Of a DNA stretch of 64,000 bases, positions 25,256-35,082 are shown in pieces. Source of the stretch: Actinoallomurus bryophytorum (GTDB taxonomy: Bacteria > Actinomycetota > Actinomycetes > Streptosporangiales > Streptosporangiaceae); contig NZ_VFOZ01000001.1 of NCBI RefSeq assembly GCF_006716425.1, positions 3,658,001 to 3,722,000 of the forward strand, in the 5' to 3' direction. Position 1 is the first letter of the stretch; every line of letters starts with the position of its first letter. The translations under genes were made by a program, and so were the position numbers. The notes under the pieces were generated by a model. That model worked only from the letters and a program-made list of their open reading frames with translations, made no database searches and was not told where the DNA came from.

Positions 25256-26350
25256 TCAGGGGGCGTCGATGAGTTCGCCGTCGTCGGCGCGGTAGACGAG
25301 CATGCGGCCCGGTTCGGGGGTTACGCGCATGGTCGCGCCCGGCTCCGGTTCGCGGCCCTCCGGGACCGTCACCTGCACCGGCGGGCCGGTCGTCGTCAAC
25401 GTGACCAGGGACGTCGTGCCGAGATTCTCCACGATGTCGACCTGGCCCTCGATGCCCTCTTCTGCCTCTACGAGGTATTCCGGCCGTACCCCCACGATCA
25501 CCTTGTCGCCCGGGTTCAGCTCGGTGACGATCTCCTCGGGGACCGGCAGCCGTACGCCGGTGATGTCGATCTGGTGGCCCCACGACTCCGCCGCCTCGCC
25601 GTCGCCCGCCACACACTCGCCCTCCAGCAGGTTCATCGGGGTCGAGCCGATGAAGCCGGCGACGAAGACGTTCGCCGGGCGCTGGAAGATCTCGCGGGGG
25701 GTGCCGAGCTGGCGGATGCGGCCCGCGTCCATCACCGCGATCCGGTCGGCCAGCGCCAGGGCCTCCGCCTGGTCGTGGGTGACGAAGACCGTCGTCACGC
25801 CGAGGTCGTGCTGGAGCCTCTTCAAGAACGTGCGCGCCTCCAGCCGTAGCCGCGCGTCCAGATTGGACAGCGGCTCGTCCAGCAGGAACACCGTCGGCTC
25901 GGCGACCATCGCGCGGGCCAGGGCGACGCGTTGCTGCTGGCCGCCGGACAACTGGGCCGGGCGGCGTTCCATCAGGCCGGCGAGTGAGAGTCCCGCCGCG
26001 GTCTGGGCGGCCTTCGCGCGGCGTTCCGTACGGCCCACCTTCTTGATCCGCAGCGGGTACGCGACATTGTCGGCCACCGTCATGTGCGGGAACAGCGCGT
26101 AGTCCTGGAAGACCATCGCCACGTCACGCTCGCCCGGTGGCAGGCGTGTGACGTCGCGGTCGCCGATGCGCAGGACCCCGGCGGACGCCGTCTCCAGACC
26201 CGCGATGGTGCGCAACAGCGTCGTCTTCCCGCACCCGGACGGGCCGAGCAGCGCGAAGAACTCCCCGTCCTCGATGTCGAGGGACAGGCCGTCGAGCGCC
26301 GTCACGCCGCCGTCGAAGACCTTGGTCACCTCTTCCAGCGAGACCCTCAT
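25256..26350 (-). CDS. Sugar ABC transporter ATPase (MsiK/UgpC type)
   Basis: 364 residues. Walker A GPSGCGKTT at 36-44, Q-loop VFQDYALFPH, signature LSGGQQQRVALARAM, Walker B VFLLDEPLSNLD and the switch His in VFVTHDQAEA. A C-terminal TOBE-like regulatory domain follows, with VGVRPEYLVE. It energises the importer encoded directly upstream in the same leftward operon, overlapping the permease stop by four bases. As the ABC locus at 9493-12613 has no ATPase, this protein might be shared, as MsiK is in streptomycetes; that is inference. Confidence 0.94.
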   Translation of the reverse strand: MRVSLEEVTKVFDGGVTALDGLSLDIEDGEFFALLGPSGCGKTTLLRTIAGLETASAGVLRIGDRDVTRLPPGERDVAMVFQDYALFPHMTVADNVAYPLRIKKVGRTERRAKAAQTAAGLSLAGLMERRPAQLSGGQQQRVALARAMVAEPTVFLLDEPLSNLDARLRLEARTFLKRLQHDLGVTTVFVTHDQAEALALADRIAVMDAGRIRQLGTPREIFQRPANVFVAGFIGSTPMNLLEGECVAGDGEAAESWGHQIDITGVRLPVPEEIVTELNPGDKVIVGVRPEYLVEAEEGIEGQVDIVENLGTTSLVTLTTTGPPVQVTVPEGREPEPGATMRVTPEPGRMLVYRADDGELIDAP

Positions 26351-27168
26351 GCCTTGATTCCCCCATGGAAGCGGAAGCCGTACCGGCGGCTGACGAACAG
26401 GAACATGATGACCACCGGGATCGAGTAGAGCAGGGAGAACGTCGAGATCAGCGCGAGGTTCGGCTGCCCGCCCTCGGTGTAGAAGTTGTTGAGCGTGACC
26501 GCGGCCGGCTGCTTCTCCGGCGTCCGGTACAGCAGGAACGGCATGAGGAAGTTGCCCCACACGTTCACCACCGCCCACACCGCGATCGTCGCGAGCCCGG
26601 GACGTACGTTCGGCAGCACGACGTGCCCCAGCACCTGGAAGGAGTTCGCGCCGAACACCCGCGCCGACTCCTCGTACGACTTGGGCATCGTGTCCATGAA
26701 GTCCTTGAGGATGAAGATCGCCGCGGGCAGCAGGCCGCCGGTCATCACGAGGATCACGCCGACGTCCTTGTCCAGCAGGTGGAGCTTGAACATCAGCTGG
26801 AAGATCGGCACCATCGCCGCCGTACCGGTGATCACCGAGGACAGCAGCAGGAGCAGGTAGAGGATCCCGTCCCGCCCCGGGATGCGGACCCGGCTCAGCG
26901 CGTACGCCGCGAGCGCGGCGACGGCGACCGTGATCAGCATCGTCCACAGGGACAGCACCGCCGAGTTGTACAGCGAGGGCAGCGCGTTCGGGTCGTCGGT
27001 CAGCGCGCCGAAGTTCGACAGCGTGAAGTCCGGCCACGAGACCGACAGGCTCGGGTTGCGCGTGAACGGCGCGGTCACCAGCCACAGCATCGGCAGCGCG
27101 AAGAACGCCGTGATGACCGCGACGAAGACGTAGAACCCGATGCGCCGCAGGAGCTGGGCGGGACTCAC
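26347..27168 (-). CDS. Sugar ABC transporter permease (MalG-like)
   Basis: 273 residues, six membrane segments, starting at GTG 27168 in a GTGA overlap with the previous permease. The coupling loop reads KSYEESARVFGANSFQVLGH, a divergent EAA motif, followed by VVLPNVRPGL. The C-terminus FLFVSRRYGFRFHGGIKA replaces the usual GAVKG ending with GGIKA. The open frame continues upstream through the other permease in another register, which is spurious. Confidence 0.92.
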   Translation of the reverse strand: MSPAQLLRRIGFYVFVAVITAFFALPMLWLVTAPFTRNPSLSVSWPDFTLSNFGALTDDPNALPSLYNSAVLSLWTMLITVAVAALAAYALSRVRIPGRDGILYLLLLLSSVITGTAAMVPIFQLMFKLHLLDKDVGVILVMTGGLLPAAIFILKDFMDTMPKSYEESARVFGANSFQVLGHVVLPNVRPGLATIAVWAVVNVWGNFLMPFLLYRTPEKQPAAVTLNNFYTEGGQPNLALISTFSLLYSIPVVIMFLFVSRRYGFRFHGGIKA

Positions 27169-29463: not shown

Positions 29464-29777
29464 CCCACAGCCTCCCGGGCAGGCAATTCCCACTATTAGA
29501 GGAGCTGTCGAAACATTTCCACGTTCATCAGGAGTTCACACCCGTACCAATGATCACGATTCGGGCTCATCCCGGTGATCGTGAGCCTGACCATGGCGGC
29601 GGGCACGCCTGGGTTATCACTTACCGGGCGGATATGGGCGCCTACTCAAGGTGATGATCTGATTGCCGCTCCGCGAGAAAGTAGCTCCGACCGGGCGATT
29701 GTCGTACGGGGTGCCGGTCGCCACCATGAATCTGCGCTTTCACCTCTACATCCGGCGTGACGGAAGGATGCGGATTC
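29464..29777. other. Divergent intergenic region of the second ABC operon and EF-hand gene
   Basis: This 314-bp gap has no supported gene. It contains a small palindrome GAAACATTTC (29510-29519), 47 bases upstream of the binding-protein gene, a possible LacI/ROK-type operator. No regulator gene is adjacent to this transporter. No clear promoter hexamers were assigned. Confidence 0.5.
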
Positions 29778-30323
29778 ATGGCGAGCGAGTTCCAGCGGCG
29801 AAAGATCGCCGGGGTCTTCGAGGCGATGGACGTCGACGGCGACGGCTTTCTTCAGGAGTCCGACTTCGCGGCGCTGACCGCTCGGTGGACCGCCATCCGG
29901 GATGCCGGCGACCATTCCCGGCTGGCCGCGATCATGATGGGCTGGTGGCACGCGCTGCTCGCGGGGGGCGACCACGACGGCGACGCGAAGGTCACGCTGG
30001 ACGAGGTCCTGATACTCACCGACCAGCTCGGCGAAATGTCCGACGAGGTCACCGGCACCGCCGAGGCGATGTTCGAGGCCATCGACGAGAACGCCGACGG
30101 GCGCATCTCCTCGGAGGAGTACAACCGGCTCATCGAGGGATGGACGGGCTGCCGGACCGCGACCGATGAGATCTTCCCGCTGCTCGACCTGGACGGCGAC
30201 GGCCACATCTCCCAGGAGGAGTTCGTCCGGCTGTGGACGGAGTTCTGGTCGGGCGATGACGCGGCAGCGCCCGGCACCTGGGTCTTCGGGCGCTTCGAAC
30301 CGCCCATGGCCCGACAGGGGTGA
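29778..30323 (+). CDS. Four-EF-hand calcium-binding protein (calerythrin-like)
   Basis: 181 residues from ATG 29778. Four 12-residue loops are visible: Asp18-Asp29 (DVDGDGFLQESD), Asp65-Glu76 (DHDGDAKVTLDE), Asp103-Glu114 (DENADGRISSEE) and Asp137-Glu148 (DLDGDGHISQEE). All keep the acidic 1, 3 and 12 positions, so all may bind calcium. The arrangement in two pairs resembles calerythrin and eukaryotic sarcoplasmic calcium-binding proteins. It has no signal peptide or membrane segment, so it is probably a cytoplasmic calcium buffer or sensor. It is convergent with the giant gene at 30368 and shares a terminator with it. Confidence 0.93.
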   Translation: MASEFQRRKIAGVFEAMDVDGDGFLQESDFAALTARWTAIRDAGDHSRLAAIMMGWWHALLAGGDHDGDAKVTLDEVLILTDQLGEMSDEVTGTAEAMFEAIDENADGRISSEEYNRLIEGWTGCRTATDEIFPLLDLDGDGHISQEEFVRLWTEFWSGDDAAAPGTWVFGRFEPPMARQG

Positions 30324-30367: not shown

Positions 30368-33300
30368 TTAACGGGGCGGCGCGTCCGGCGGATCATCGAC
30401 CAGCTTGATGATGAACAGGCCGATGCCGTCCTCACCGGCGGAGAACTGGTCCGAGCTGCTTTCGTCGCGCGACTCGAAGATCCGATAGCTCTCCACACGA
30501 GGGTGCGCGTCCAGCCACTGTTGCCAGCGTTCGCGGTCGTAGGCGATGTTCGGGAATCTCGTGCCGCGTCCCGCCGTGTAGCCATGGCCGGCCTCGCCAC
30601 CCTTGACCGCCGGCAGGTTAAGCACGTTGCCGAAGACCACATACCCCCCGGGACGGACGGCACGGATCACGTGTCCCCTGAACTCGGCGGCCACGGCCCA
30701 TTTGGTGCTCATGGAGTCGGACGCGTAGAACTCCGCGGCGATGTCGACGGGGTGATCCCCGTGGCCGGAATCGAAGGTGAAGATGTCGTCGACGTGCAGC
30801 CTGGTGGACTCCATGTCCCGGTCCAAGGGCCGCTCGAAGTGCTCGGCCTGTCCGGGGAAGTGCTGTGTCCCGGCCGCTTTGACCACCTCGCCCCAGGGCT
30901 CGGCGATCTTACGCGTGTCGATCTCCTGTGGAATGCCGTAGCGGTCGGTATTTCTGTAGATCCCATCTCCGGGGCCGTACTTCACGTTGTTGTAGTCGAT
31001 CTCCTGCTGGTTCGCTTCGTAGACGAGCTTCTCCACATAACCGTCCTCGGACAGCAAGGGCCCGAATGTCAGCGACGGATAGGGGTTCGTTCCCGATGCG
31101 ACGTCGAGGAAACGCTTGAACTCCCCGGGGTGAACTCCATAATCGGTCTTGAGAATGGAGTAGATGGCATTGATCAGCTTGATGTCGTGCCCGAGGATGC
31201 GCGGTTTCCAGTTTCCGGGCTCCCAACGTCCGGGGATGACGCCTTCGGGCGGCGTCCAGACCGCCGGAACACGTTCTCCCACGTAGTTGCGGAGTGTGTA
31301 CTCGTACGCGTCGAACTTGTCCCAGTCGGTGAACGCGTCGCCGGTCGCGTGCTCGCTCTTGGCCAGATCCTTGATCGAGTGCACGAGCCCGTCGGGTGAG
31401 TCGAACTTGACCTGACGATAGAGCTTCAGGAGTTCGTACGGATCCGCGGATCCAGTGAGTTTCTCGGCGACCGGTTCGAACGTCCGGATGGATGCCCCGT
31501 CGTCGAAGCCGCGCGTTTTCGGCCACTCGGCTCTGATGAGCTCATGGAGATGAGCGACTTCGCCGAGCATGAACCGGTGTTCGACGGCGTTCGCCGCCTC
31601 CTTGTCGAGGCCGTAGAAGTCGACGATCAGAGCGGCGTCCATGAGCGTACGACTGATGTGCTGGCCTGCCGGCGGCGCCATGCCGTGTTCGTTCAAAAGG
31701 TCGCGAGCGTAGTCGTGGAACTGCTGCGGACTCAGGATCTCGTCCTGGGGGATGCCGTATTCACTGCGGACCAGCTGCTCGAGCTGGCGCGTGGGGGTGA
31801 AGTATCGCGCGACTTGCGGCCAGTCCGTACCCCTGGTCAAGTCCATCGCGAGGCTGAGCGTGTGGCCGGCGCCCTTCATTTCCTCCATCGTCACTTCACG
31901 GTCCAGGCCGAGCAGTTCCTGTGCGATGCCGCTTTGCGTTGTTCCTGGCACGGTCGCCCACAACCGGGCGAGCGCCCTGGCATGCGCCGGGGTCGGGATC
32001 TGGTCCGGAGGCAGGTCCCAGTAGTACCCCACCAGCTCATGGAAGGTGGCGAGGGTAGCCCCTCTGTTTCTGAAGATCGGATATTCGTGTGCTTTGAGGA
32101 GGATGCTCAGATCCGTCCGGCGTAGATCGGCGATCGGCGAGGTTCCCTTGGGAGCGATGTCCGTCTGCCGGTCGCCGAACAGTGCCTGCAGCACTGTCTC
32201 GATGTGCCGCCCGGTCACCTCCGTGTCCGCTCCGAGTCCGAGGGCCGAGTTCGTGAGCTGTTTCAGGCGGACGAGCTCGCCCGTGTGCCTCCAGTAGTCG
32301 AACGGCTCCTGGGGATGCCAGACCTCGTGCAGTCGCAGCAGGCGACCGAGTGCCTGAACGGCGTTGCCATCTGATCGGCCCTGCGTGCCCGTCGCCGCGA
32401 ACCTGTGCAGCGCTCTCACTCCGGGAGGCTGAAGTTGTCCAGGGCGACGTTCCTTGTAGTAATCGGCCACCCGCGTCAGGGAATCCACGTGATACGCCGT
32501 GAGGGGGACGTCTGGGGGAAGACCCAGGGCGTTGCGTGTCCACTCGCGAAGTCGCTCTGGCGTCGGCAGTCCGGAAGTATGGTTCTCGTCCCCGAGCACG
32601 TGGACCAGGTTCTCGAGTCGAGGGAGGGCGTTGGCGCCCGCCAATTCGGTCATCTCAGCGGTGGTGGCTGGCCCAAAGGCTTCCTCGGACAACGTCAGCC
32701 ACTTATCGGCGCGTTGTGACTCGGCCGGTTGGAACACACGTCCGACCGCCATGAAGCCCGCCATACCCGCTGCCAGACCAAGATCCTTGGTCCAGTTGAC
32801 GTCCCCGTGGTTGAAGGCGACGTCTCCGGCCACATTGAGCCCGAACCCGACGCCCGTGTTGACGGCCAGCTGGCCGGGCACACGGTGGGCGAGGAACTCG
32901 GCGAGCTCGCTGCCCTCGGCGGCCGCCTTGCCCAGGCCATAGTGAATCTTCCCGGTGACGCCTCCACTGACGGCGCCGAAGGCCGCGGAGGTCAGCACGG
33001 AACTCCAGTCGGCGGGCAGCCCGTACGCCTTCCGGGTGAGGTCGCTGACGAAGGCGAGGCCGCCCATGAAAGCGGCTCCCGAGGCGCTCACGCGGAAACC
33101 GGTGGTCATCAGCATCATTCGCAGCCGCAGACCGACGCGCCCGGTCTCGGACAGTGCGGCGAACGTACTTACCGGGAAAAGCGTGGCGGTGGCCCGGGCG
33201 ACGCCCCACAGCAACAACAGGTACCCGCACGCCGCCAGGAAGTTCGTCTTCGCCCATGCGATCTGGACGCCCGTGTACCGGCAGTAGGCCGCCACACCGC

Positions 33301-34024
33301 GGCATGCCTGTGCGCCTTCGGCCAGGTGCCCGCTGCCGCCCGCCAGTTTCGCGAACGACTGGGTGAACAGGTCGATGGCCTCGCCGGCGTTTCCATCCGA
33401 GATCGCCGCACCATGGCGGGTCGCGACATGGGTGACCTCGTCGATGACGTCGGCGAGCGCGTCGAAGGTCCGCGCCACGTGGTCCATCTCGGATGCGTCG
33501 CCGGCCGGGTAAGTACACCCCGCCACCATGGTCTCCAGCAGTTCCAGCAGCCATTGGTACTCCCGTGGCGCGACCTCCAGCGGCAGCCGCTCCAAGGGCG
33601 CCGTGCCGACCACGTCACGCAGGGCGGTACGCCGGTCCGCCACGGAACCGGCGTCGACAGTGCCGGGAAACAGCGGGTTGACCGGTTTCCCGTTGACCGG
33701 GCTCGCACCATCGGCCTGCGCATAGGTGTCGGCCATCTGCGCCGACCCCGAGGCGTGGCCTTCCAGAGCCTGCACCAGCTCCGCCAGCCCGCCGAGGATC
33801 TCGTCTCTCGCCACGCGGAAACCGAGCGAGCCGTTCTCCCCGTCGAGGAACGAACGACCCAGGGAGTCGTTCCCCCACGGTGTGTTTCCTACGAGGTCCA
33901 GCGCGTAGACCGTATTGCCGAGCGAGATCCTCAACATCGCGGCCGCGTCGCCGATCCCACGGGCCGAGATCGCGATCTGCTCCGGATGGACCGCGAATCC
34001 CCAGGCGTCATTCATCCCGCCCAT
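30368..34024 (-). CDS. Giant WXG100/CpnT-like protein with methyltransferase-like C-terminus
   Basis: About 1,218 residues. The N-terminal 250 residues are helical and resemble the WXG100-like domain of CpnT-type polymorphic toxins (NTPWGNDSLGRSFLDG, then AEGAQACRGVAAYCR). A hydrophobic region follows at about 260-430 (FLAACGYLLLLWGVARATA, VNTGVGFGLNVAGDVAFNHG). Residues about 490-780 hold at least five degenerate repeats of the type Gly-Leu/Ile-Pro-x-Asp...Thr/Pro-x-x-x-x-x-x-Leu (NALGLPPDVPLTAYHV, SALGLGADTEVTGRHI, YWDLPPDQIPTPAHA, EYGIPQDEILSPQQF). The last 250 residues look like a SAM-dependent methyltransferase: FLDVASGTNP near 972, YEAN near 1002, and RAVRPGGYVVFGNVL near 1121. ATG 34024 is favoured by an upstream GGTGGG; GTG 34036 and ATG 34015 are alternatives. 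Export by an ESX-like system is inference. Confidence 0.75.
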   Translation of the reverse strand: MGGMNDAWGFAVHPEQIAISARGIGDAAAMLRISLGNTVYALDLVGNTPWGNDSLGRSFLDGENGSLGFRVARDEILGGLAELVQALEGHASGSAQMADTYAQADGASPVNGKPVNPLFPGTVDAGSVADRRTALRDVVGTAPLERLPLEVAPREYQWLLELLETMVAGCTYPAGDASEMDHVARTFDALADVIDEVTHVATRHGAAISDGNAGEAIDLFTQSFAKLAGGSGHLAEGAQACRGVAAYCRYTGVQIAWAKTNFLAACGYLLLLWGVARATATLFPVSTFAALSETGRVGLRLRMMLMTTGFRVSASGAAFMGGLAFVSDLTRKAYGLPADWSSVLTSAAFGAVSGGVTGKIHYGLGKAAAEGSELAEFLAHRVPGQLAVNTGVGFGLNVAGDVAFNHGDVNWTKDLGLAAGMAGFMAVGRVFQPAESQRADKWLTLSEEAFGPATTAEMTELAGANALPRLENLVHVLGDENHTSGLPTPERLREWTRNALGLPPDVPLTAYHVDSLTRVADYYKERRPGQLQPPGVRALHRFAATGTQGRSDGNAVQALGRLLRLHEVWHPQEPFDYWRHTGELVRLKQLTNSALGLGADTEVTGRHIETVLQALFGDRQTDIAPKGTSPIADLRRTDLSILLKAHEYPIFRNRGATLATFHELVGYYWDLPPDQIPTPAHARALARLWATVPGTTQSGIAQELLGLDREVTMEEMKGAGHTLSLAMDLTRGTDWPQVARYFTPTRQLEQLVRSEYGIPQDEILSPQQFHDYARDLLNEHGMAPPAGQHISRTLMDAALIVDFYGLDKEAANAVEHRFMLGEVAHLHELIRAEWPKTRGFDDGASIRTFEPVAEKLTGSADPYELLKLYRQVKFDSPDGLVHSIKDLAKSEHATGDAFTDWDKFDAYEYTLRNYVGERVPAVWTPPEGVIPGRWEPGNWKPRILGHDIKLINAIYSILKTDYGVHPGEFKRFLDVASGTNPYPSLTFGPLLSEDGYVEKLVYEANQQEIDYNNVKYGPGDGIYRNTDRYGIPQEIDTRKIAEPWGEVVKAAGTQHFPGQAEHFERPLDRDMESTRLHVDDIFTFDSGHGDHPVDIAAEFYASDSMSTKWAVAAEFRGHVIRAVRPGGYVVFGNVLNLPAVKGGEAGHGYTAGRGTRFPNIAYDRERWQQWLDAHPRVESYRIFESRDESSSDQFSAGEDGIGLFIIKLVDDPPDAPPR

Positions 34025-34187
34025 GGGAGCACCCACCCGTCTTGCAGACTCCGAACGTGATCTTTCGCATGCTAGCCGTTGGAGCCCGCGATCTACACCG
34101 TGGATCCGGTGCTCTTATACCTGGGCGTGCTCGCCCTGCTCGCCAGGTCACGCCGCGCCGGAGTTTGGACCCCTGAGTACACCGCCA

Positions 34188-34234: not shown

Positions 34235-34333
34235 TCAGCCGCGCTCTTCTTCCGCGACCGAGACCTCGACACAATCGTCGTTGTTGGCGCCTGATCGGCT
34301 CGACTTACGCCAGGGAGTTGTCACGACACCCAT
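34235..34333 (-). CDS. Truncated DUF397 protein
   Basis: Only 32 residues: MGVVTTPWRKSSRSG followed by ANNDDCVEVSVAEEERG and a stop. The W-R-K-S-S-x-S-G...CVEV block is the DUF397 hallmark, but the second half of the family, with the V-R-D-S-K and P-A-E-W motifs, is missing (usual length about 60). GGAGG five bases before ATG 34333 suggests it is still translated. It overlaps the end of the XRE gene by 13 bp. DUF397 proteins pair with Scr1-type XRE regulators; this shortened one may be a broken partner or a minimal version. Confidence 0.75.
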   Translation of the reverse strand: MGVVTTPWRKSSRSGANNDDCVEVSVAEEERG

Positions 34334-35082
34334 CGTTCCTCCGCCGTCCGCTTGATCAATTCTTTCGACATTCCCAGCGGCAGTGCCTCGGCCTTGATCG
34401 ACTCCCACAGTGCTTCTGCTCGTGCGATGTCGTCCGGGGCGACGGTCACCAAGCCACGCACGGCAGTTTCCAGGTAGGCGGCGGTACTGCCGTTTTCCAG
34501 CGTAGCGAGCACGAACGGGCCTTGTGTCCCCAGATTTACGTCGCTCGGTAGCACCTGGATCTTGATGCTGCGAGACGAGGACTCCACAAGGTGCATGAGC
34601 TGTTCGTACATGACCTCGGCTCCGCCGACGTTGCGCCACAGCACGGTCTCATCGAGCACGACATGGAGGGTGGGAGGCTCGGCCTGATCGAGGATTAGCT
34701 GACGCTCCATGCGGGCGGTCACGTCTCCGTCCAGCAGGGCCCGTGCGTATGCCTCCGTCTGTAACAAACCGTAGATGACGTTCGGCTGGAAGGTCCTCAG
34801 GACGTCGGCGCCCTGTTCGTAGGGGAGCCACTTGCCGAACCACGTGGGGAATGCGCTGCCCTTGCGGTAGTCGAGGGTGCGGGTCAGGGTGCCGCCGGTG
34901 GTGAGCTGCTTGTCGCAGGACTCGGCGAACTCCACCGTCGCCGGGACCTGGCCCGTCTCGATCTGGCTGATGAGCGACGTCGAATAGTTGATCCGCTGGG
35001 CCAGCTCCGCCTGTGTGAGCCCCGCCGCCTGCCGGTAGTGCTTCAGCTCCCGGCCCCAAATGGCCATTGGCGTGTATTCCAT
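34321..35082 (-). CDS. Scr1-type XRE regulator (HTH + DUF5753)
   Basis: 253 residues. An N-terminal XRE helix-turn-helix (residues about 10-60) reads LKHYRQAAGLTQAELAQRIN then STSLISQIETGQVPATVEFA. The rest is DUF5753, with FGKWLPYEQGADVLRTFQPN, VIYGLLQTEAYARALL, LDETVLWRNVGG and GPFVLATLENGSTAAYLETA. Such proteins regulate themselves and neighbouring DUF397 genes and influence development and antibiotic production in streptomycetes. It is divergent from the small orphan-family gene at 35234 across 151 bp. Confidence 0.93.
   Translation of the reverse strand: MEYTPMAIWGRELKHYRQAAGLTQAELAQRINYSTSLISQIETGQVPATVEFAESCDKQLTTGGTLTRTLDYRKGSAFPTWFGKWLPYEQGADVLRTFQPNVIYGLLQTEAYARALLDGDVTARMERQLILDQAEPPTLHVVLDETVLWRNVGGAEVMYEQLMHLVESSSRSIKIQVLPSDVNLGTQGPFVLATLENGSTAAYLETAVRGLVTVAPDDIARAEALWESIKAEALPLGMSKELIKRTAEERWVS

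Follow-up and report, generated by a model that had tools for sequence, protein, structure and literature searches.

CpnT-type toxins, of which CpnT-TNT of Mycobacterium is reportedly one, couple a long N-terminal module with WXG100-like helices to an enzymatic C-terminal tail. Here we describe a protein of this layout encoded in a window of 64,000 nucleotides, our term for the whole stretch analysed, from Actinoallomurus bryophytorum (assembly GCF_006716425.1, contig NZ_VFOZ01000001.1, positions 3,658,001 to 3,722,000 of the forward strand; genome of 9.47 Mb). In the closest described systems, the PEST3 prophage toxin cassettes of M. abscessus, passages of the published account describe N-terminal modules of about 300 amino acids with two WXG100 motifs that are superimposable on CpnT, and two upstream Esx genes for both PEST3 and cpnT (PMC10654092). 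Unlike these, the window protein carries a predicted methyltransferase tail, has no coupled immunity gene and is accompanied by no recognised upstream Esx pair. Its likeness to CpnT is drawn through the WXG100_2 domain (PF25547) and the published description rather than through a comparison with the CpnT sequence.

Toxin tails were surveyed in 2012, and the sections consulted of that survey list nucleases, deaminases, peptidases, ADP-ribosyltransferases, glycosyltransferases, kinases and pore formers (PMC3482391); the word methyltransferase is absent from the first 300,000 of its 357,715 characters. Neither a methyltransferase tail of this kind nor a methyltransferase toxin was found in the open-licence literature searched, which leaves most subscription journals outside. 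The nearest mentions, each in excerpted text, are Tsb1, which has a methyltransferase domain and may be a type VI effector (PMC10879055), and Re87, a short protein resembling methyltransferases that belongs to a type VI module (PMC10215855). In the excerpts of three further papers one match was uninformative (PMC11148199) and the mentions in the other two concern unrelated genes (PMC8191103, PMC10327511). Hence, a methyltransferase cargo on a CpnT-type module appears to be undescribed in the literature searched.

The gene is real: the GC content of its open reading frame (ORF) at the three codon positions is 0.67/0.47/0.82, a coding-like pattern, and full-length orthologues are present in two more genomes (Actinomadura sp. 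DC4 and G091). Its parts, in positions of the window, are as follows.

30368..34024, minus strand: the whole gene, 1218 amino acids, with ATG at 34024 and stop at 30368; an in-frame GTG at 34036 is a possible alternative start
32735..34024, minus strand: residues 1-430, a CpnT-type, type VII secretion-like N-terminal module (N-module), common to relatives with other tails
31343..32734, minus strand: residues 431-894, a putative linker with about four degenerate units (marginal), from profile self-comparison
30371..31342, minus strand: residues 895-1218, an NNMT/PNMT/TEMT-like class I methyltransferase tail, from profile comparisons

A preliminary description made from the DNA letters had proposed a CpnT-like toxin ending in a methyltransferase-like domain, and what it observed was confirmed overall. 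As to its interpretation, the CpnT-like N-module, the methyltransferase tail, the varied tails across the family and the lack of an adjacent immunity gene were borne out, but the repeats proved marginal and the three proteins with this tail share their full length.

Profile comparisons identify the tail as a distant relative of the nicotinamide- and amine-methylating enzymes, that is, as a predicted class I methyltransferase of the NNMT/PNMT/TEMT kind. A full-length NCBIfam scan recovered SCO2525_fam at an expect value (E) of 5.9e-4, and the tail alone matched it in all three orthologues (E 4.5e-6, 1.1e-8 and 9.6e-11). These matches score 26.3, 34.9 and 41.6 bits, below the curated cut-off of 240 for the SCO2525 family (NF040568), and we accordingly place the tail outside the family proper, though homologous to it. 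The family itself was found over its cut-off at 12 places in 9 of 120 genomes of the taxonomic family, of which seven were usable and aligned (L061 being trimmed to its matched stretch). Comparison of the three-tail profile with this seven-row profile using hhalign yielded E 7e-16 and a score of 111.1 across 232 columns, end to end, against 11.3-21.2 in 13 controls comprising one reversed profile, ten profiles with shuffled columns and two other parts of this protein, its N-terminal and middle regions. By these controls, chance is a very unlikely source of the match. The seven-row profile in turn retrieved the solved structures of NNMT (1.9e-11), PNMT (5.6e-9) and INMT (1.4e-6) from the PDB, and two SCO2525 members match PF01234 (9.4e-10 and 9.1e-17). 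Thus, the tail is linked to the NNMT/PNMT/TEMT class (PF01234) via the SCO2525 family, whereas a direct Pfam match to NNMT is obtained for one of the three tails, at E 0.069. A further SCO2525/NNMT-like methyltransferase gene is carried by a contig that IMG/VR classes as viral (L098:4992-5699).

The sequence elements of this tail, including the motif I, motif II and RAVRPGGY block that the preliminary description had named (its DVASGT covering residues 974-979), are all present:

31283..31324, minus strand: W901-x2-F904-x4-Y909-x3-N913-Y914, a domain-start motif common to the SCO2525 family (ten-row alignment)
31076..31105, minus strand: motif I, DVASGTNPYP, residues 974-983, the expected S-adenosylmethionine (SAM)-binding loop (alignments)
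31010..31021, minus strand: motif II, YEAN, residues 1002-1005 (orthologue alignment)
30641..30664, minus strand: RAVRPGGY block, residues 1121-1128 (alignments)
30548..30583, minus strand: GYTAGRGTRFPN, residues 1148-1159, aligned to the GYxVGxxxFPA block of the SCO2525 family (ten-row alignment)

The SAM-binding role given to motif I is the one generally known for class I methyltransferases. The ten-row alignment is made up of the three tails, an SCO2525-like protein encoded on a viral contig and six of the seven SCO2525 members. In it, W901, Y909, N913 and Y914 of the start motif occur in every row and F904 in at least 90%; D974, G978, N980, Y982, P983, F1099, P1125, G1148, F1157, P1158 and G1197 are likewise invariant. 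Among the three orthologues the invariant positions are D974, G978, N980, Y982, P983, Y1002, E1003, N1005 and the R1124-P-G-G run. The tail thus shares with the SCO2525 family, along with end-to-end profile homology, the start motif, motif I, an FF/FY block and a GY..G...FP block. It differs in its low identity to the members (16-22% for the tail of the window protein), in being fused to a secretion-like module, and in three insertions, one of about 26 residues behind the start motif, a long one following motif II and one of 9 residues ahead of GYTAG.

The preliminary description had suggested structure prediction as a check on the tail. Two AlphaFold models were made, with mean predicted local distance difference test scores (pLDDT) of 39.4 and 40.9; both being of low confidence, the fold assignment rests on the sequence profiles instead. 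Fold searches with the model of pLDDT 40.9 are given little weight, as the search tool describes matches from such models as meaningless. Searching the whole protein against PDB sequences gave no match, and two gp120 rows that a two-row tail alignment drew from the PDB (E 1 and 2.1) were taken as chance.

Could the tail be a pseudo-methyltransferase, which keeps the fold and merely binds or carries? Its distance from characterised enzymes would fit this, as would the alanine at position 976 of motif I, where both orthologues have glycine. However, D974, G978, N980, Y982, P983, Y1002-E1003 and N1005, together with Y909 and Y914, are invariant in the three orthologues, most of them are also kept in the seven SCO2525-type relatives of the ten-row alignment, and the ratio of nonsynonymous to synonymous substitution rates (dN/dS) in the tail is 0.30-0.35. 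We therefore hold a non-catalytic tail to be a distant prospect.

By a simple counting method, dN/dS against the DC4 orthologue is 0.51 for the N-module, 0.37 for the middle and 0.30 for the tail, and against that of G091 0.53, 0.44 and 0.35, respectively; three neighbouring genes give 0.24, 0.18 and 0.08. The tail is hence subject to purifying selection and more constrained than either of the other two segments, while the gene as a whole evolves faster than these neighbours (69% protein identity to DC4, as against 88, 93 and 96%). The methyltransferase-tailed form is narrowly distributed. In overlapping genome samples that each include the source genome, with some first-look candidates scored per genome, the tail was found in 3/297 genomes of the family and 3/345 of the order, in 1/394 of the class (the source genome), and in 2/396 of the phylum (the source genome and a weak match of 65 amino acids in G401, E 4.4e-4). 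The three tail-bearing genomes belong to one genus, out of 70 in one of these samples. A scan of genome contigs with an exact peptide pattern hit a single locus, that of DC4, and no occurrence was found in phages, plasmids or viral contigs.

At the other end, the protein belongs with the proteins having a WXG100_2 N-module, as judged by profile search: PF25547 is matched at E 9.7e-9 with 35.8 bits (cut-off 27), which supports the WXG-type N-terminus claimed earlier; a second N-terminal Pfam match, to WXG100, is sub-threshold. The module contains the following elements.

33866..33877, minus strand: W-G-N-D, residues 50-53, a WXG-like turn motif (29-protein alignment)
33710..33724, minus strand: Y-A-Q-A-D, residues 101-105, a Y-xxx-[D/E] export-type motif (29-protein alignment)
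33227..33541, minus strand: WXG100_2 (PF25547) match, residues 162-266 (Pfam scan)
33125..33262, minus strand: residues 255-300, the most hydrophobic stretch, a possible membrane-inserting segment (Kyte-Doolittle)

In the 29 aligned proteins G51, D53 and G56 are universal, position 50 has W (19 proteins), F (9) or Y (one), position 101 has Y (26), W (two) or F (one), and residue 105 is always acidic (E in 19, D in 10). Although the first motif reads W-G-x-D and not the strict W-x-G, we read it and Y101AQAD105 as the likely WXG-like turn and Yxxx[D/E] motif of type VII substrates, the latter being a motif linked to type VII secretion. The hydrophobic middle noted in the preliminary description corresponds to residues 255-300, but its Kyte-Doolittle maximum (1.54 at residue 262, in a 19-residue window) falls just under the 1.6 usually taken to mark a membrane span. 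The host genome encodes six EccC ATPases over the curated cut-off. A link of the YxxxD/E motif to type VII secretion also appears in the portion consulted of PMC8191103.

The segment between the two modules had been described as holding at least five degenerate repeats at about residues 490-780. Comparison of the profile with itself gave off-diagonal matches of 27-32 columns, the best at E 0.0022 with a probability of 13%, and candidate units near residues 489-520, 584-615, 660-688 and 748-775; four degenerate units are thus plausible, but five are not established and the support is marginal.

A whole-protein search of eight genomes of the genus gave 32 matches in seven of them: the gene itself, the two full-length orthologues and 29 others. 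These 29 begin by residue 21 in 28 cases and at residue 34 in one, and none extends past residue 471. The 29-protein alignment used above consists of the window protein, the two orthologues and 26 of these matches, leaving out two short ones (G000:C3 and G115:C12) and G135:C7, which has a stop inside the frame. The last (G135:C7:48715-49833; L027, L097) is an N-module relative whose stop lies within a long frame, possibly a broken gene. Over the 297 family genomes the N-module recurs at E 1e-35 or better at 10 places in six genomes.

Pfam scans (E-value limits 0.001 to 0.05) of 14 other N-module members found WXG100_2 over the cut-off in 11 and below it in one, with two uncalled. Ten of the 14 carry domains of seven other kinds, and four show nothing beyond the N-module. 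Three combine a Scabin-like ADP-ribosyltransferase with FHA (one over the cut-off, two below), two have a GH-E nuclease, and single members have APH, a GT9 glycosyltransferase, Gln_deamidase_2, a sugar transferase with an alpha/beta hydrolase, or an internal AbiEii. Residues 1-430 of the window protein are 38-46% identical to the corresponding part of L038, L041 and L042 (Scabin-like ADP-ribosyltransferase and FHA), L039 (APH) and L040 (GT9), which have the same N-module but tails unrelated to the methyltransferase. The varied tails behind a shared N-terminus that the preliminary description had foreseen are thus seen in the relatives, with similarity ceasing at or before residue 471 and different domains following. 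It had also counted against itself any set of homologues sharing the whole length without tail variation: the three methyltransferase-tailed proteins do share theirs, at 53-69% identity and with no tail variation, whereas the wider N-module family does vary its tails.

Several of these relatives merit individual mention. L038, L041 and L042 are built of the N-module, an FHA domain, a long region and the Scabin-like ADP-ribosyltransferase tail, and the L038 copy lies in the window's own genome. In L039 (4111-6834), which ends in the kinase-fold APH tail, the next ORF overlaps the gene and encodes a PQQ-type propeller protein (382 amino acids, PF13360); it could be a candidate immunity gene of the APH-tailed protein. 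The heptosyltransferase-like GT9 tail of L040 (4958-8023) is overlapped at its end by a convergent LysR-type gene, and no coding-like same-strand partner ORF was seen there. L095 (4443-11018) is an N-module protein of 2191 amino acids in which residues 898-1138 form an AbiEii-type nucleotidyltransferase domain; a coupled ORF of 127 amino acids follows its gene.

We examined the genomic neighbourhoods for partners by asking whether a coding-like ORF starts between -60 and +150 bases from the stop, in 31 members. No dedicated coupled coding-like gene follows any of the three methyltransferase-tailed loci after review (GC pattern and ORF rule), in agreement with the earlier statement that no immunity gene is evident; the automatic test had flagged one of them, L036, where the gene concerned is the syntenic solute-binding-protein gene. 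A rule that the close clade of the N-module as a whole lacks immunity genes failed: coupled ORFs were found in 6/10 close and 13/21 distant members (Fisher p = 1), and as the automatic test did not separate the two groups we make no clade-wide claim about immunity. By eye, the coupled ORF of L038 crosses a stretch opposite a convergent ORF and then an ABC-ATPase-like part, and that of L042 looks non-coding. Those of L039, L095 and L096 look real.

These data bear on the proposal that the protein is a classical interbacterial polymorphic toxin, whose methyltransferase kills or stops related bacteria and whose immunity gene lies elsewhere in the genome. The 13 coupled ORFs among the 21 distant relatives are consistent with putative toxin-immunity pairs, and three of those 13 members carry nuclease or glutaminase domains (L070, L071, L074). 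However, none of the three methyltransferase-tailed loci has such a gene, and their tail is the most constrained segment and is unswapped among the orthologues. We consider the proposal unlikely; with an adjacent immunity gene sought and not found, we do not file the protein as a polymorphic toxin, though it may work like one.

Two neighbours of the gene were considered as partners and judged to be outside the system.

29757..30323, plus strand: convergent EF-hand protein, 188 amino acids, as had been described earlier
34321..35082, minus strand: upstream XRE/DUF5753 regulator, with no match in the other two loci

The EF-hand gene was rejected as an immunity gene on its distribution. Neither the DC4 locus, in which the methyltransferase-tailed gene and its downstream neighbour are just 108 bp apart, nor the G091 stretch contains a match to it; two genomes without a tail match, G176 and G135, hold close copies (75 and 71%); the G152 copy (69%) is on a different contig from the tail; and the best EF-hand in G091, which has the tail, is weak at 28.8 bits. 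The copies in G176, G135 and G152 are near-full-length, at 69-75% identity. The XRE/DUF5753 gene was set aside as a partner on its absence from the other loci. Behind it, at 34235-34330 of the window, a DUF397 domain begins (profile positions 2-21 of 55) and runs into an early stop; this looks like a truncated remnant. In the DC4 locus the gene is flanked by the same solute-binding-protein and E2 acyltransferase genes as its window counterpart, and the EF-hand and XRE genes are missing. The G091 orthologue is located elsewhere, beside trypsin-like and NYN-domain genes, and the sole other similarity of its 16-kb stretch to the window is 39% over 215 amino acids to the ORF at 25256-27085.

This kept chromosomal position in two genomes, from the solute-binding-protein to the E2 acyltransferase genes, would suit a cell-associated enzyme of the producer, in which the N-module anchors or exports the protein to the envelope, or no export takes place, and the methyltransferase acts on an own metabolite or signal. 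The same could be said of the lack of an immunity gene and of the nearest recognised relatives of the tail, which are stand-alone actinobacterial proteins. Against it, SAM is generally known to be lacking outside the cell, elsewhere in its family the N-module is attached to effector-like domains, and the gene evolves faster than its three measured neighbours. We regard this arrangement, too, as improbable.

From the architecture, homology and conservation set out above we infer a different course, to which we give about an even chance: the protein may be a type VII secretion effector whose methyltransferase acts on a small molecule in the recipient, using the recipient's SAM. Residues 1-430, with the WXG-type helical region, the Y-xxx-D motif and the hydrophobic stretch, would form the export and delivery module, and residues 431-894 the linker. 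The tail would work only in a cytoplasm, where SAM is available: with its cofactor confined to the cytoplasm, a methyltransferase fused to an export module is best understood as reaching the cytoplasm of another cell. Enzymes of the NNMT type work on small molecules, which makes a metabolite (an amine, pyridine, thioether or similar) the most likely substrate in the recipient cell. As no immunity gene travels along, the producer itself is probably not sensitive: the substrate may be of importance in the recipient alone, or the enzyme may modulate rather than kill; the three of three loci without a coupled immunity gene fit a target absent from the producer, or a modulating role. The N-module relatives also carry domains typical of secreted effectors, namely Scabin-like ADP-ribosyltransferase, Gln_deamidase_2 and GH-E nuclease.

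Several observations weigh against an exported effector methyltransferase. The direct Pfam evidence for the tail is poor, the DC4 tail having no match and that of the window protein being to the unrelated DUF4880 at a chance-level E of 0.16, and the structure models are of low confidence. No WXG100/Esx-type partner was recognised near the gene at the three loci, in ORF lists and among small coding-like ORFs of at least 50 amino acids within 3 kb. A small helical ORF of 111 amino acids lies on the opposite strand some 2 kb upstream of the G091 orthologue (L037:11726-12061); this lone candidate has no WXG100 match and only a sub-threshold one to DUF6468. Export and activity are predictions from the sequence, and as the methyltransferase-tailed form comes from three related genomes there are few sequences to judge from.

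With these points in mind, we tentatively suggest, as a possibility that is somewhat on the doubtful side, that actinomycetes deliver an NNMT/PNMT-type methyltransferase by type VII secretion, which would consume the SAM of the recipient or disable a key metabolite, and that no immunity gene is needed since the target is not in the producer. The immunity-free form, conserved over its full length, offers a testable contrast with the same-genus relatives that have a coupled downstream gene. A cargo of the NNMT kind would point to metabolic interference, via SAM or via the methylation of small molecules, and would constitute a new class of warhead among type VII effectors. Together with the sister glycosyltransferase and kinase-fold tails, it would suggest that the N-module may serve as a delivery platform for modifying enzymes, with roles extending beyond killing.

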